Shown in pieces: positions 1,322 through 7,985 of a DNA stretch of 64,000 nt. A program made the position numbers and the translations under genes. This stretch comes from Brachyspira pilosicoli P43/6/78 (GTDB lineage Bacteria; Spirochaetota; Brachyspiria; Brachyspirales; Brachyspiraceae): contig NC_019908.1 of the NCBI RefSeq assembly GCF_000325665.1, positions 1,922,001-1,986,000 on the forward strand. The letters are read 5' to 3'. Within the stretch, counting starts at the first letter, position 1. Each line of letters opens with the position of its first letter. A model generated the notes under the pieces. It was not told the origin of the DNA, did no database searches, and was given only the letters and a program-made list of their open reading frames with translations.

Positions 1322-3268
1322 GTGAAGTATATTAAATATTTATTAGTATTATTGGTTTTTAATTTTTCGTTGTTTGCTTTAACAGAAGCTGAGCAAAGTT
1401 TATTTGATGCTGTAAACAGAAAAGATTATCAAAATGTTTCTACAATACTAAGCAGTTCTCCAGACATTAACATTAATGCTTCTGATATGGAAGGATACAC
1501 ATCTTTGCACAGAGCTATTGTTAATAATGATTTAAACACTGTGATGGAACTTTTAAAGAATGAGAATATTGATGTTAATTCAAAATTGGGAATAGAAGTT
1601 TCAATAGACGGTTGGTATTTAGGAGGAGCTACACCTTTAATATTAGCTTCATATTTAGGATATACTGATATTGTAAATGCGTTAATAGAGAAAGGCGTAG
1701 ATGTTAAGGCTAAAGATGATGTTGATGGCTGTATGGCTATACATTTAGCTGCGGCAAACGGAAAGAATGATGTTATTAATATTTTATTAGATGTAGATGC
1801 TTCAAATATAAATGATGTAGACAATAGAGGAAATACTCCATTACATTGGGCTTCTATGAAAGACAGAGCTGATACAGTTTCACTTCTTATAGAGAATGGT
1901 GCTGATATAGAAGCTAAGGATATAGATAATTGGACTGCTTTACATTATGCTGCTGCTTTTGCTTCACTTCAAACAGTTGAGGCTTTAGTAGATAATGGTG
2001 CAGATAAAAATAGCCTTACAAAAGACGGCAACATTCCTGTTAATTATGCTAAAGATGAAACTATAAAAACTTATTTATCTGGCGGAAAAATAGGAAGAGA
2101 AGATACTGAAGAAGTTGTAGAAGAAGAAACTACAGAAACAGAAGAAACTACTGAAAATACTGAAACTTCTGAAACTATTGCAGAAGATGAATTAAATAAT
2201 GAATTAGATACTACTCAAAATGGAAGCATAGTTGATCCCACTGTAGTAGATTTAGACCCTAAACAATTAGAGCTTTTAATCGCTGTAAAAAATAATGATA
2301 TTATAGCTGTTAATGCTTTATTAAAAGAAAATGTTAATCCTAATTTCGTAGATGAAGAAGGTTATTCACCATTACATAGAGCTGTATTAAATAATAATTT
2401 AGATGTAGTTAATGTTTTGCTTAGCTACAAAGATATAGATACAGAAATTAAACTTCCTTATGAGGCAAGTGTTGATGATTGGTATTTGGGAGGAGCTACT
2501 CCTTTACTTGTTGCTTCATATACTGGAAATGCTGATATAGTTAATGCTTTAATAGAGGCAGGAAGTGATATAAGAGCAAAAGATGATATAGATGGTGCTA
2601 CTACTATACATATAGCTTCTGCAAATGGAAACAATGAAGTTATTAATATTCTTCTAAATAAAGATAACACTTTAATAAATGAAGCAGACAGCATGAAAGA
2701 TACTCCATTACATTGGGCTTCTATAAAAAATCAAACAGATACTATCTCACTTCTTCTTGCAAACGGTGCAGATACAAAACTTGCAAACTCTGACGGAAAT
2801 ACTGTTTTACATTATGCTGCTATGTATGGCGATGTTAATACTGTTAATGTTTTACTTGAGGCTGATTCTTCTTTGGCAAGTGTAGAAAACAATGAAGGAA
2901 TTGCTCCTATTTATTATGCCATCGTTGTAAGCGATAATGATATATTATCATCTATAATCACTAACGGACAAATAGATATTAACAAAAAAGATTCTTTAGG
3001 ATATACTCCATTACACTATGCTGCTAATTATGGTAATATGGAAGCTGTTGTATTATTGGTTGAAGAGTTTAATGCTGATAAAACTATAGTAAATGATGAT
3101 AATTTTACTGCTTCAGATATAGCTGCTAATAATTCTTATTATACTATAGTTGAATATTTAGGCGGTACTGTAAATTATAATAATCAAAATAATACAGAAA
3201 ATGTTAAGCCAAGTATTGTACTTCCAGAATATAACAAGAAAAGAGATTTATCTAAAAAGTGGTGGTAA
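1322..3268 (+). CDS. secreted ankyrin-repeat protein with two duplicated halves
   Basis: The GTG start at 1322 has GGAG seven bases upstream and begins a signal peptide (MKYIKYLLVLLVFNFSLFA). Residues about 23-247 hold six or so ankyrin repeats (e.g. GNTPLHWAS, NWTALHYAA). An acidic Glu/Thr linker spans about 258-310. Residues about 315-600 carry a second set that matches the first repeat by repeat, including the same non-canonical insert DWYLGGATPL or GWYLGGATPL and the paired DTPLHWAS/NTPLHWAS repeats, plus two extra repeats. Ankyrin repeats bind proteins; the signal peptide points to the periplasm or surface. The C-terminus is basic. Partner unknown. Confidence 0.85.
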   Translation: MKYIKYLLVLLVFNFSLFALTEAEQSLFDAVNRKDYQNVSTILSSSPDININASDMEGYTSLHRAIVNNDLNTVMELLKNENIDVNSKLGIEVSIDGWYLGGATPLILASYLGYTDIVNALIEKGVDVKAKDDVDGCMAIHLAAANGKNDVINILLDVDASNINDVDNRGNTPLHWASMKDRADTVSLLIENGADIEAKDIDNWTALHYAAAFASLQTVEALVDNGADKNSLTKDGNIPVNYAKDETIKTYLSGGKIGREDTEEVVEEETTETEETTENTETSETIAEDELNNELDTTQNGSIVDPTVVDLDPKQLELLIAVKNNDIIAVNALLKENVNPNFVDEEGYSPLHRAVLNNNLDVVNVLLSYKDIDTEIKLPYEASVDDWYLGGATPLLVASYTGNADIVNALIEAGSDIRAKDDIDGATTIHIASANGNNEVINILLNKDNTLINEADSMKDTPLHWASIKNQTDTISLLLANGADTKLANSDGNTVLHYAAMYGDVNTVNVLLEADSSLASVENNEGIAPIYYAIVVSDNDILSSIITNGQIDINKKDSLGYTPLHYAANYGNMEAVVLLVEEFNADKTIVNDDNFTASDIAANNSYYTIVEYLGGTVNYNNQNNTENVKPSIVLPEYNKKRDLSKKWW

Positions 3269-3765: not shown

Positions 3766-4906
3766 TTACATATAATGCATCACTTCTCTTATAAACAAAT
3801 TATTCGATTTTGAAAGGTCTAAAACCTCAAGATAATTAGCATCGCTTCCGTCTTCATTTTTTTCAATAGAAAGTATTGGTCTTAAAGGTAAATTGGTGTT
3901 TTGCTGTATTACTCTAGCAGTTTGTCCGTTAGATAATTTTACTTTTGTATTATTCGGATAAAAACCTATAGCCTTTTGAAAATGTTTTACTATATCCATA
4001 TCAAAGTCTTTTTTTGAAAGCGATATAATAATTTTCATTGCCTTATCTGCAGAGCAAATTAAACCGTCATTTCCATTAACAATGAGATTATTAAACTTAT
4101 TTGCTATAGAAACCACTTTACTGTAAAGCCCTATATCTCTGTTTCCCTTACCAAAAGGATAACCGCTTCCGTCATATTTCTCATGATGTTCTAATATTAT
4201 ATCTGCAATATTGTCTTCCAAATTATCTCTCTTAGCAAGTTTGTATCCGTGCGTTGTATGTTCTTTTTAATATATTAATTTCATCTGCAGTTAAATTTTT
4301 TTTGTTTAATAAATATTCTTGAACTAATACTTTTCCTATATCATGAAGCAAAGCACCAAGCATAATATTAGATATATCAGCCTTTGTTAAATTCATTTCT
4401 ATTGCAGTAATGGCAGATAATGCAGCAACGTCCACTGCATGTTTATATATAGATTCATCTTTTCTTTTTAATATAGCTAAATAAGAATGAGCTTCTCTAT
4501 TTTCTAATATAGAATTAAGCATAATATCAACATCTTTTTTTAATTCTATAAAATCAACAGTACCATTATTTTTTGCTATGTTGTAAGCATTTTTAGTTTT
4601 TTCCATTGTTGTATTATTTACGTCCAAAGCTTTTTGGCTGTCAATTTTTAGTATCTCTTTGCCGTCTTCTTCTATTATCACTTTTTTATTTAATTGATTT
4701 TTTATGCTGTTATCAAAATTATTTTGATATTTATTGTCTATTAATTCAACAACAGATACTGTAGTAATATATTTTCTTTTTAATAATTCTATGGTACTTT
4801 TTGTTACAATAGAACCCATATCTATTATAATATTATCATCGCTGTCATATACATTAGAAGCTATTTTCATTCCTTCTTTAAGCTCTATTGTTGGTATAGT
4901 AAACAT
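3766..4906 (-). pseudogene. HD-GYP domain protein (cyclic di-GMP phosphodiesterase family), frameshifted
   Basis: Reading from 4906, the first frame gives 214 good residues: an N-terminal segment typical of HD-GYP proteins (IELKEGMKIASNVYD), KHAVDV with the first His at 156, and LLHDIGK with the HD pair at 188-189. It then drifts to a stop at 4232. In the next frame the protein continues correctly as KEHTTHGYKLAKRDN and HHEKYDGSGYP, the GYP signature. Removing one A from the A5 run (T5 at 4264-4268 on the plus strand) rejoins both parts into about 379 residues. All metal-binding and GYP motifs are present, so an intact version would be expected to hydrolyse cyclic di-GMP. Whether the shift is real decay, slippage or a sequence error cannot be told here. 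It lies downstream of rsmI on the same strand. Confidence 0.85.
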
Positions 4907-4965: not shown

Positions 4966-5640
4966 TTATTTTATTACTAATACAAACTCTCTTTTTTTGT
5001 TTTCAGCATATTTAGAACAAAGAACTCCAATTTCATCTATTATAATATCTTCTGTAGGCAGAGTTAAATCCATACATAAAGCAACTATTTTGTTTTTTGA
5101 ATATATTTTTTTAACAGCATTAAGCACTTTTGAAAGCCTATAAGGAGTATCCAAAACTATAACAGGAACATTTAATTTTTTTAATTCTATCAGCTTTCTC
5201 TCTCTTTCTCTGTCATCTCTAGGCAAAAGACCGGCATAATAAAACTCTCTAAAATTAAAAGGTAAACACATAATAGCCGCTGTAACACTGCTTACACCGG
5301 GTATGGGTTTTACTTTTATATTATAAGAATAACAATATTCAAGAAGCTCTCTTCCTGGGTCTTCCAAAGCCGGTGTTCCGCAATCACTGATGAGAGAGAC
5401 AGTCTTACAATTTAATATTTTTATCATTATATCATCAATGTCTTTACCTTTTTTTGTATGCTCGCTAAACTCTATTAATTTTGATTTATCTATATTAAGG
5501 TTAAGATTTTTAAAAAGCGTAGTAGCCTCTCTAAAACTTTCAACCAATATAATGTCGCTTTCAGTTAATATTTCTTTAAGCCTCTCTGTGTTATCTTTGT
5601 AATTACCAATATCTCTCGAAGCTATATAAACTACAGGCAT
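4966..5640 (-). CDS. rsmI: RsmI-like SAM-dependent methyltransferase (tetrapyrrole methylase fold)
   Basis: About 224 residues. RsmI methylates the 2'-O of C1402 in 16S rRNA. The match shows in VYIASRDIGNYKDNTERLKE at the N-terminus, SDCGTPALEDPG near residues 86-97, IPGVSS near 114-119 and the GLLPRDDRERERK segment typical of RsmI. It is divergent: the usual EDTR is ESFR, and the protein is shorter than the E. coli enzyme. ATG at 5640 or the TTG just upstream (5643) may start it; the GAGGAG ribosome site lies inside the last codons of the upstream amidase (M-R-R-K-stop), so translation is coupled. Another member of the tetrapyrrole methylase family remains possible. Confidence 0.75.
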   Translation of the reverse strand: MPVVYIASRDIGNYKDNTERLKEILTESDIILVESFREATTLFKNLNLNIDKSKLIEFSEHTKKGKDIDDIMIKILNCKTVSLISDCGTPALEDPGRELLEYCYSYNIKVKPIPGVSSVTAAIMCLPFNFREFYYAGLLPRDDRERERKLIELKKLNVPVIVLDTPYRLSKVLNAVKKIYSKNKIVALCMDLTLPTEDIIIDEIGVLCSKYAENKKREFVLVIK

Positions 5641-5644
5641 CAAA

Positions 5645-6688
5645 TTATTTTCTCCTCATTATAATATTTTTATTAGTATGCATATAATCCCAATTATTAT
5701 TTACTATATTATTGCTTATAAATATATTTGTAAAGAATGTATTTGTAAGGAAGTTATTAGCTTTAGAGCGTTCATAAGCTTCATTAAGTTTTTTAACTTT
5801 TAGGTTCAAAGCTCTTGCTATACTGTATGTTTCTTTGTCTATGTTGCCGTCTATATCATTAGTTCTAAACCTGCATTGAAAAGCATATAGCACTTTTCTT
5901 GATTCATAATCCCACACATTATTAGTAGGCATACTTGTATATCCATATTTTATAAACTCATTTTTTATATCCATTACAGTAGCTCTTCTATAATCATTAC
6001 TCATCATAAAGTTACTATAATCTTCTTCATCATACCATATACCCAAATCATATTCATCGTATAATCTTTTCCAAGGGAATTTTGGTCCTGGGTCTTTTTT
6101 TCTGTATGGTGCTATATCTGAATGCCCTAATATATTATAAGGTCTCACTCCATATTTATCTACAAGCTCTCTAAGAAGATATGCTACTTTCTCTATTTGT
6201 GATTCATCATACTCTAAATATTCATCATATGGAGTAAAGTATAAATTTTCAAGCTGTCTTTTATTCATTCTTGCAAGCTGCTGCGGGGTGTTTGTTACTT
6301 TTTGTATATATCCCAAATTTACAATTTCTATTCCAACAGAACTATCATTAATGCTGTATCTATTTTGGTACATTGTAATTCCAGCATGCCAAGCTCTGTT
6401 TGTGTCATCTACAAGTTTATATATAGGTTCATTAGCTCTTGTTGTTATTAAATAATGCGAAGATACACCAGGGTCTGTTAATACTTTTAGAGACATATCA
6501 TCATCTAATGCTGTGTAGTGAAGTATTATATAATTAATTCTTAAATTGTATGAACCAGATTTATAAAGTGTTGATATTCTAGGGGCTTTTTTTCTTTTGT
6601 TTATGGCAGGGGCAGTAATTTCTTCTGTGTTGTTTGAGCAAGAAATAACTATACTTACAATCAGCAACATAAAAATATTTTTAAACAT
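5645..6688 (-). CDS. AmiD-like N-acetylmuramoyl-L-alanine amidase lipoprotein
   Basis: 347 residues. A lipoprotein signal (LLIVSIVISC, Cys 17) is followed by an Amidase_2 domain with ILHYTA (zinc His 57), GVSSHYLI, AWHAG, VGIEIVN and the signature GHSDIAPYRKKDPGPKFPW. A helical C-terminal part around residues 240-300 resembles the peptidoglycan-binding region found in AmiD. It should cleave the amide bond between MurNAc and L-Ala in the periplasm from a membrane-anchored position. Its ATG overlaps the end of the CHAT gene by eight bases with GGAG nine bases upstream, and it abuts rsmI, so these genes form one transcript. Confidence 0.85.
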   Translation of the reverse strand: MFKNIFMLLIVSIVISCSNNTEEITAPAINKRKKAPRISTLYKSGSYNLRINYIILHYTALDDDMSLKVLTDPGVSSHYLITTRANEPIYKLVDDTNRAWHAGITMYQNRYSINDSSVGIEIVNLGYIQKVTNTPQQLARMNKRQLENLYFTPYDEYLEYDESQIEKVAYLLRELVDKYGVRPYNILGHSDIAPYRKKDPGPKFPWKRLYDEYDLGIWYDEEDYSNFMMSNDYRRATVMDIKNEFIKYGYTSMPTNNVWDYESRKVLYAFQCRFRTNDIDGNIDKETYSIARALNLKVKKLNEAYERSKANNFLTNTFFTNIFISNNIVNNNWDYMHTNKNIIMRRK

Positions 6689-7985
6689 AACAAGCTACTC
6701 CATTAAATCTATAACGCATAAAACCATTATAATTGTCTTTTATCTCTATATGTGCAAAATGAAATGCCTGAGCCGTATTTATTCTAGAATGCTTATGAAG
6801 TAAATTTGAATAAAAACTCATAACAAAATCATTATATATATTATCGGATAAACTTCCAATTCCAGAAACTACAGTGTTTACACCGCATGATAAAAATGAT
6901 TTTACTATATTGCTGTCATTCATATTGCATGCATTAATAAAAATCAATTTAGGCGGATTCTCTAATGCAGAAATATTATTCAATATATAATCTTTACTTA
7001 AAGATAAACCATTCGAATGACCATGCGTAATAATATGCACTATATCATAATTTTCTAAAACTTTTACAAACTCAAAATAATTATGTTCTTTTTTATACAC
7101 ATCAATATTTAAATTGTTATTAGCAGATAATTTTTTTAATAAATCAATTTCTTTTTCATCATTTATATCATCATATGGTATTGATACTACAGCTATTTTT
7201 CTACTATTTGTAATTTTTTTATGCATCACATTAACAGCACTAATATAAGAAAATATTATTTTTTCGGATAAGAATTTATTATTGTATGATAATATATCCC
7301 AAGGTATTGAAGAAGTTGTTTCATCAAGATTTAAATAAACTATTCTAAATCCTTCAAATAAATGTTCTCTAAAATCCTTTTCTGGTATGAGCATATTCAT
7401 TAAATAATTTCCAATTTCTAAATACTTGCTTATATTATCATTTTCGCTATTTGCTTTTTTTAATAATCTTAAATATTCTTTATATATGCTGTTGTATGCA
7501 TCAAAATCAAAAGGCTTTTTATATTCTGCAATATATAATGACGGATAAGTTTCTATTGCTTTATAATGAAATATATATTCTTTTTTATTATGTTTTTCTT
7601 TATGCTTTTCTATAGAGCAGCTTAAAAATGTTTGAGAGATATTTTCATTTAATAAAACTAATCTCTCTTTTAACTTTGAAAAAATATTTTCATCTATATT
7701 ATAAATTGAAAAGTCATTATATTTTTCTTTGAGATTGTAATATATTCCTCTTCTTTTTTTATAAGTGTCTGTTATGTTTAAATATAAAAAACTATCTTCT
7801 TCAGTTTTAGTATTTAAATCTATTTCATATGTGCCGTATAATTTATTTTTTTCATTGTCGTATAAAAAGATATTTATTTTTTCTTTCTTGTTTATTTTTT
7901 TAAATTGAGTTTTTTTTATTTTGATGCATTCAAAATTTGAAGAGTCAAAAAAGTTTTTATTTTGCGTTATAATATAATTACTCAT
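6681..7985 (-). CDS. CHAT-domain protein (caspase-like cysteine protease fold)
   Basis: 434 residues with no signal peptide or membrane helix, so cytoplasmic. The C-terminal half has the CHAT pattern: SIPWDILSYNNKFLSEKI (about 225-245), then DIVHIITHGHSNGLSL with the expected catalytic His at about 321, then PKLIFINACNM with the expected Cys at about 353, then GVNTVVSGIG and a final YNDFVMSFYSNLL helix. Both members of the His-Cys dyad are present. The N-terminal 200 residues are Lys/Ile/Asn-rich and unrecognised, possibly a sensor or binding region. CHAT proteins act as proteases in separase-like, gasdermin-cleaving and CRISPR-linked systems. No such partner is adjacent; the next gene is a cell-wall amidase. 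Substrate unknown. Confidence 0.85.
   Translation of the reverse strand: MSNYIITQNKNFFDSSNFECIKIKKTQFKKINKKEKINIFLYDNEKNKLYGTYEIDLNTKTEEDSFLYLNITDTYKKRRGIYYNLKEKYNDFSIYNIDENIFSKLKERLVLLNENISQTFLSCSIEKHKEKHNKKEYIFHYKAIETYPSLYIAEYKKPFDFDAYNSIYKEYLRLLKKANSENDNISKYLEIGNYLMNMLIPEKDFREHLFEGFRIVYLNLDETTSSIPWDILSYNNKFLSEKIIFSYISAVNVMHKKITNSRKIAVVSIPYDDINDEKEIDLLKKLSANNNLNIDVYKKEHNYFEFVKVLENYDIVHIITHGHSNGLSLSKDYILNNISALENPPKLIFINACNMNDSNIVKSFLSCGVNTVVSGIGSLSDNIYNDFVMSFYSNLLHKHSRINTAQAFHFAHIEIKDNYNGFMRYRFNGVACYV

Follow-up and report, generated by a model that had tools for sequence, protein, structure and literature searches.

A gene conserved in the core genome of Brachyspira encodes a CHAT-domain cysteine protease, as identified by sequence, fold and catalytic dyad, with its activity predicted, and overlaps the gene for an exported peptidoglycan amidase. 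We analysed the gene pair in a window of 64,000 nucleotides from the B. pilosicoli P43/6/78 chromosome, and compared it with related loci in other spirochaetes (Table 1). By analogy with a known CHAT protease circuit, we give a little under an even chance to the reading that the protein is a sensor-protease which cleaves an anti-sigma factor and so frees a dedicated sigma factor. On this reading the amidase would be an envelope partner of the protease, translated together with it.

Table 1. Features of the CHAT protease locus and of the sigma factor locus in the same genome. Positions are those of the window, except where prefixed C1 (own genome).
Feature	Position	Strand	Basis
rsmI (16S rRNA 2'-O-ribose methyltransferase)	4966..5643	(-)	TIGR00096 4.3e-40, under that model's cut-off; synteny
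AmiD/AmpDh2-type N-acetylmuramoyl-L-alanine amidase lipoprotein, 347 aa	5645..6688	(-)	Amidase_2; AmpDh2/AmiD matches; lipobox IVIS-C
8-bp overlap of CHAT stop and amidase start	6681..6688	(-)	ORF coordinates; Met codon at the same overlap in 22 genus loci
CHAT-domain cysteine protease gene (434 aa, ATG start; DCD/EVE-like N-terminus and CHAT)	6681..7985	(-)	Pfam CHAT; single copy; genus distribution
CHAT domain, residues 192-415	6741..7412	(-)	Pfam; separase/Csx29 fold matches
Predicted catalytic Cys353 codon (INACN)	6927..6929	(-)	Invariant in 19 homologues; aligned with 8tl0 and separase
Predicted catalytic His321 codon (DIVHIITHG)	7023..7025	(-)	Invariant in 19 homologues; aligned with 8tl0 and separase
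DCD/EVE-like (PUA-type) domain, residues 1-112, putative sensor	7650..7985	(-)	Sub-cut-off DCD/EVE matches; blind search; secondary structure of model
ECF-like sigma gene, own genome	C1:1219859-1220740	(-)	Sigma homologue, E=1.6e-33
Anti-sigma-like gene, own genome	C1:1219356-1219862	(-)	Position after sigma; HHalign

The CHAT protease

The 434-residue protein matched the Pfam CHAT family (PF12770) at E=1.7e-11, its 44.6 bits lying well above the curated cut-off of 24. A reading of the sequence alone (the sequence-only reading) had proposed a CHAT protease with its catalytic residues at about His321 and Cys353, and this identification was upheld. Both residues were unchanged in an alignment of all 19 homologues, at identities down to 18%, and in HMM alignments they fell on the His and Cys of the CHAT protein 8tl0 and of separase. 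An AlphaFold2 model (pLDDT 79.5; pTM 0.44, so that relative domain placement is uncertain) placed His321 directly after strand 315-319 and Cys353 after strand 347-351. Catalytic His and Cys residues directly after core strands are the arrangement of the caspase fold. Matches to this model below E=0.001 in Foldseek were separases and Csx29, with probability 1.00, and the predicted structure thus bore out the caspase-like core.

Asp381 was also invariant, and aligned with the TDRD segment of separase, a region in which a separase Asp binds the P1 arginine; we take this as a lead only for Asp381. NCBIfam gave no name for the protein, Pfam gave no TPR match in it, and no signal peptide was recognisable in it by eye. 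The protease is probably cytosolic.

The N-terminal domain

The N-terminal half had been left unassigned by the sequence-only reading. Profile and structure comparison gave it a likeness to DCD and EVE domains, at scores below the curated cut-offs. The Pfam Dev_Cell_Death family (DCD, PF10539) matched 17 of 22 homologous N-termini, all under cut-off, the best at E=7.5e-4 and 19.7-19.8 bits against 27.8, while EVE (PF01878) matched one of the 22 (2.9e-4; 21.3 bits against 23). When 393 spirochaete genomes were searched blind with DCD, CHAT N-termini held eight of the first ten places; a blind EVE search of spirochaete genomes found one (G073). YTH folds, which are relatives of EVE, made up seven of the top 50 PDB matches of the N-terminus in Foldseek, at non-significant E-values of about 0.2 or worse. 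HHalign comparison of EVE with the N-termini from two other spirochaete families, f5 and f24, scored 63-73% over only 21 columns, with none of 100 shuffles as good, and gave no EVE signal with the N-termini of the genus alone. A PDB sequence search with the N-terminal profile found nothing meaningful. The order of secondary structure elements in the modelled N-terminus agreed with that given for EVE and DCD (PMC7641849).

Because this evidence is concordant and all below threshold, we label the domain DCD/EVE-like: by profile and model it looks like a PUA superfamily domain, and is not a proven member of either family. EVE and DCD domains are predicted readers of modified bases, and the survey of these domains does not mention CHAT (PMC7641849). 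Our literature search found no description of CHAT fused with EVE or DCD. If the assignment holds, a protease joined to a DCD/EVE-type domain is apparently undescribed.

The amidase and neighbouring genes

The AmiD-like lipoprotein called by the sequence-only reading was confirmed by a Pfam Amidase_2 match (E=1.1e-26), by matches to AmpDh2 (1.8e-45) and AmiD (1e-38), in which the HYT and GHSDIAP.RK.DPGP.FPW motifs aligned with AmpDh2, and by the lipobox MLLIVSIVIS-C, which was read from the sequence and found in most homologues of the genus. At the C-terminus, PG_binding_1 scored 20.6 bits against a cut-off of 23, and the full-length AmpDh2 alignment spans that part. The overlap with the CHAT stop, given earlier as eight bases, is exactly that, and translational coupling of the two genes is probable. 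Since the amidase carries a lipobox and the CHAT protein no signal peptide that could be recognised by eye, the two proteins most likely act in separate compartments.

The rsmI gene starts 1 bp past the amidase gene. Both it and an HD-GYP gene had been placed downstream, and both are there, but the latter is frameshifted in this genome. This HD-GYP-type phosphodiesterase gene (3766-4906, minus strand) is split into ORFs of 224 and 151 aa; in four further loci from the B. pilosicoli group with which it was compared (L031, L032, L033, L056), it is a single ORF of 379 aa. At 1322-3268 on the plus strand, the window also encodes a protein with a signal peptide and many ankyrin repeats, which form two similar halves. 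The PADLOC models that it matches contain repeats, and these alone probably account for the matches.

Conservation of the gene pair

The CHAT gene is present in a single copy in the 2.56-Mb genome, and its product shares 96% identity with the CHAT proteins of two B. pilosicoli strains. The gene was found in 24 of 26 genomes of the genus; the two without it have completeness values of 88% and 86%, and the amidase is missing from them too. The dN/dS of the CHAT gene was 0.06-0.10, comparable to that of the amidase and of a neighbouring peptidase gene and indicative of purifying selection. Two candidate losses were set aside. An apparent CHAT pseudogene in G024 is explained by a string of N and a single apparent frameshift where the sequence is rich in A, probably an assembly error, and in G028, where CHAT and amidase seemed to be lost together, the contig stops where the pair is expected.

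CHAT and amidase genes were adjacent in all 22 genus loci read, followed by rsmI in 19, and the ORF starts showed that each of the 22 has a Met codon giving this 8-bp overlap. The genes upstream of CHAT vary between clades. In the sister genus g2 the pair is also adjacent, 29 bp apart, and so the adjacency seen in the window proved to be kept across the genus and beyond it. The g2 amidase ORF (L046:8927-9802) is 291 aa long, and its homologous region crosses in-frame stops, suggesting a lost C-terminal tail. The pair is part of the core genome, without signs of a defence island. A literature search for the CHAT domain together with Brachyspira found nothing.

The amidase adjacency could be incidental, with two unrelated core genes sharing an operon and the protease having a job of its own. 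All cases lie in one family and may reflect a single ancestral event, the two genes are on separate contigs in the genus g3, and the amidase is absent from the CHAT locus in other families. However, the pair has stayed together despite rearrangement on both sides, at CHAT identities of 53-57% within the genus and 41-43% to g2, and the exact 8-bp overlap is available in 22 of 22 loci. We consider an incidental arrangement quite unlikely.

The sequence-only reading had also raised a module for protease-triggered lysis. We took this together with abortive infection: once activated, the CHAT protease would set the amidase free to kill the cell, either as defence or as programmed death. CHAT proteases do occur in defence systems, the pairing with a wall-degrading enzyme is conserved, and one distant relative weakly matches the PADLOC model BovA (Borvo). 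This model did not match the CHAT protein of the window at E up to 0.1, PADLOC matched neither protease nor amidase, and no defence system was recognised among the scanned neighbours. The lysis reading is weakened by this lack of defence context in housekeeping surroundings, by the inheritance of the gene, which is single-copy, vertically inherited and under purifying selection, and by compartment, since the amidase is a lipoprotein with an ordinary export signal and a cytosolic protease would not meet it. On these grounds the proposal is unsupported, and we regard it as very unlikely.

Sigma and anti-sigma genes beside CHAT in other spirochaetes

A profile of the CHAT protein matched 106 of the 393 spirochaete genomes, some of the weak matches being other CHAT proteins, and the contexts were mostly housekeeping. 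In the families f5 and f24 (6/6 loci), f13 and f4, an ECF-like sigma gene lies immediately after a DCD-CHAT gene, and in all four an anti-sigma gene comes after the sigma wherever the contig reaches. In f6 the CHAT gene comes last, behind sigma and then anti-sigma, and its product has a different architecture with a C-terminal extension. These sigma/anti-sigma pairs, which the window does not show, are a stronger clue than the amidase adjacency. The sigma profile matched SigW at 7.1e-14, which classes it as ECF-like, and the f5 anti-sigma carries a zf-HC2 finger.

Of the 46 CHAT-positive genera, 44 had the sigma factor, as did 14 of the 122 other genera. This co-occurrence is inflated by shared ancestry: the EVE family, which is unrelated, also clusters in many of the families in question. 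Some sigma-positive genera had no detected CHAT. Because shared ancestry inflates co-occurrence, we consider the adjacency in five families to be the better evidence.

Two further observations concern these loci. At all six f5/f24 loci (L051, L052, L101-L104), DCD-CHAT lies directly after tsaE and tsaB, genes of tRNA t6A modification; the slot downstream of tsaE/tsaB is often occupied by rimI in other bacteria. A second CHAT protein, about 600 aa long, occurs widely among spirochaetes (L083-L100, L109-L117), with the CHAT domain first and then a C-terminal region of about 270 aa. In f31 its gene has pdxJ, a Sua5/YrdC gene and a gene for a CxxC-rich protein as neighbours, and in f17 an acyl-CoA synthetase gene.

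The Brachyspira sigma/anti-sigma pair and a candidate cleavage site

A single clear homologue of the sigma factor is present in each Brachyspira genome searched, unlinked to CHAT, and the CHAT-sigma link in Brachyspira itself therefore rests on analogy. In the Brachyspiraceae loci that were read, that of the own genome among them, a small gene follows the sigma gene; six spacings were measured and lie between -11 and +11 bp. The own-genome sigma gene, which is divergent, overlaps this small anti-sigma-like gene by 4 bp (see also L198:8357-9741). We identified the Brachyspira anti-sigma by its position after the sigma, and then supported it with HHalign: the Brachyspiraceae small gene is homologous to the f2, f4 and f13 anti-sigmas (97% over 155 columns, 0/40 shuffles as good). 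Its zinc ligands are lost in Brachyspira, and a search with the A6 profile gave no direct match to it.

The anti-sigmas are otherwise very divergent, but an Arg between their N-terminal and C-terminal regions is kept in 27 of 29, from at least ten families. One alignment had Arg or Lys at that position in 29/29, and in one of four alignments the Arg was not among the top five columns. In the own-genome protein it is Arg92 (LTPLLSRGEND). Cleavage after Arg or Lys is known for several clan CD proteases. This near-invariant Arg is a candidate cleavage site, as judged from conservation, and may instead be structural.

Proposed mechanism

We modelled our scheme on Csx29, the CHAT protease of type III-E CRISPR systems, which cleaves the sigma inhibitor Csx30 (PMC10028731). 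A signal, plausibly a nucleic acid or modified base, would act on the N-terminal DCD/EVE-like domain; the CHAT protease would then cut the anti-sigma, perhaps at the near-invariant Arg; the freed sigma factor would direct a transcriptional response; and the AmiD-type amidase, probably co-translated with the protease, would probably be an envelope-remodelling partner in the same response. The computed parts of this scheme are the domains, the dyad, the conserved gene pair, the triad adjacency in relatives and the sigma/anti-sigma homologues in Brachyspira, whereas sensing of a ligand, cleavage, the regulon and the part played by the amidase are inferred. The sensor-protease reading is supported by the retention of the CHAT pair through rearrangement, the triad in five families and the precedent of Csx29. 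It is weakened by the unlinked CHAT and sigma genes of Brachyspira, by the differing architecture of the f6 CHAT proteins and by the sigma-positive genera in which CHAT was not detected. If it holds, the caspase-like protease that Brachyspira conserves would gain a function, and its substrate and cut site are predicted concretely.

Envelope or cell-division housekeeping would dispense with the sigma factor: protease and amidase would together remodel peptidoglycan, the protease acting on a cytosolic division or envelope substrate. The conserved coupling with a peptidoglycan amidase and the status of CHAT as a core gene under purifying selection are consistent with this, as is HetF, a putative CHAT protease that interacts with FtsI at midcell (PMC8406250). 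However, the amidase link is limited to one family whereas the sigma link is found in five, and the TPR and transmembrane segments of HetF are not seen in our protein. We judge housekeeping of this kind to be unlikely, while giving it some weight.

Surveillance of RNA quality or modification is a different role for the same sensor, in which the PUA-type domain would read tRNA or rRNA modification and the protease would adjust translation or stress factors. The tsaE/tsaB genes directly upstream in f5/f24, rsmI downstream in Brachyspira and the predicted reading of modified bases by EVE/DCD domains (PMC7641849) point in this direction. Against it, housekeeping genes such as tsa and rsmI are often found as neighbours, three of the 22 loci have lost rsmI, and the tsa genes are not near CHAT in Brachyspira. 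As a separate explanation we find it highly improbable; it would be compatible with the sigma explanation, as the input signal.

A broader form of the sensor-protease reading is that a CRISPR-independent system is ancestral in spirochaetes, in which a PUA-type sensor protease cuts an anti-sigma at the conserved Arg and frees the sigma, and to which Brachyspira couples co-translation of the amidase. We hold this full version to be doubtful. If true, a chromosomal spirochaete version would suggest where the Craspase circuit could have come from. Our literature search found no description of a CRISPR-free CHAT/anti-sigma/sigma module, Craspase being the sole such circuit found (PMC10028731).

Comparison with known systems

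The amidase resembles AmiD of E. coli and AmpDh2 of Pseudomonas aeruginosa in its Amidase_2 domain, its lipoprotein signal and a putative peptidoglycan-binding-like tail, and differs in the overlap of its gene with that of a CHAT protease. Separase (Peptidase C50) has the closest solved fold to the protease domain, with the invariant His/Cys and a shared downstream Asp segment; however, it is a eukaryotic cohesin protease with a large helical N-terminus, and its sequence similarity is only distant. HetF of the cyanobacterial divisome shares with our protein a chromosomal CHAT domain, a role in cell physiology and not in defence, and a possible peptidoglycan link, but has transmembrane and TPR regions, and the portion of its description used here does not describe a DCD/EVE-like domain (PMC8406250). 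The EVE-HNH endonuclease VcaM4I and other PUA-sensor effectors (PMC7897488) likewise combine an N-terminal EVE-type sensor with a C-terminal effector. Their effector is a nuclease, whereas here it is a protease, with a sensor assignment under cut-offs.

The closest parallel in circuit is Csx29/Craspase, a TPR-CHAT protease with Csx30 and CASP-sigma (PMC10028731): as there, the CHAT protease is linked, in relatives of the Brachyspira system, to an ECF-like sigma factor and its inhibitor. No cas effector was found among the neighbours of the CHAT loci read, and the system at these loci is without TPR, Cas7-11 and CRISPR. Its inhibitors are zf-HC2-type anti-sigmas or derivatives, their cleavage is predicted, and the protease is encoded by a chromosomal core gene with a DCD/EVE-like domain in the sensor position. 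The system would thus be a CRISPR-free variant of the CHAT/anti-sigma/sigma circuit, with a different sensor domain.
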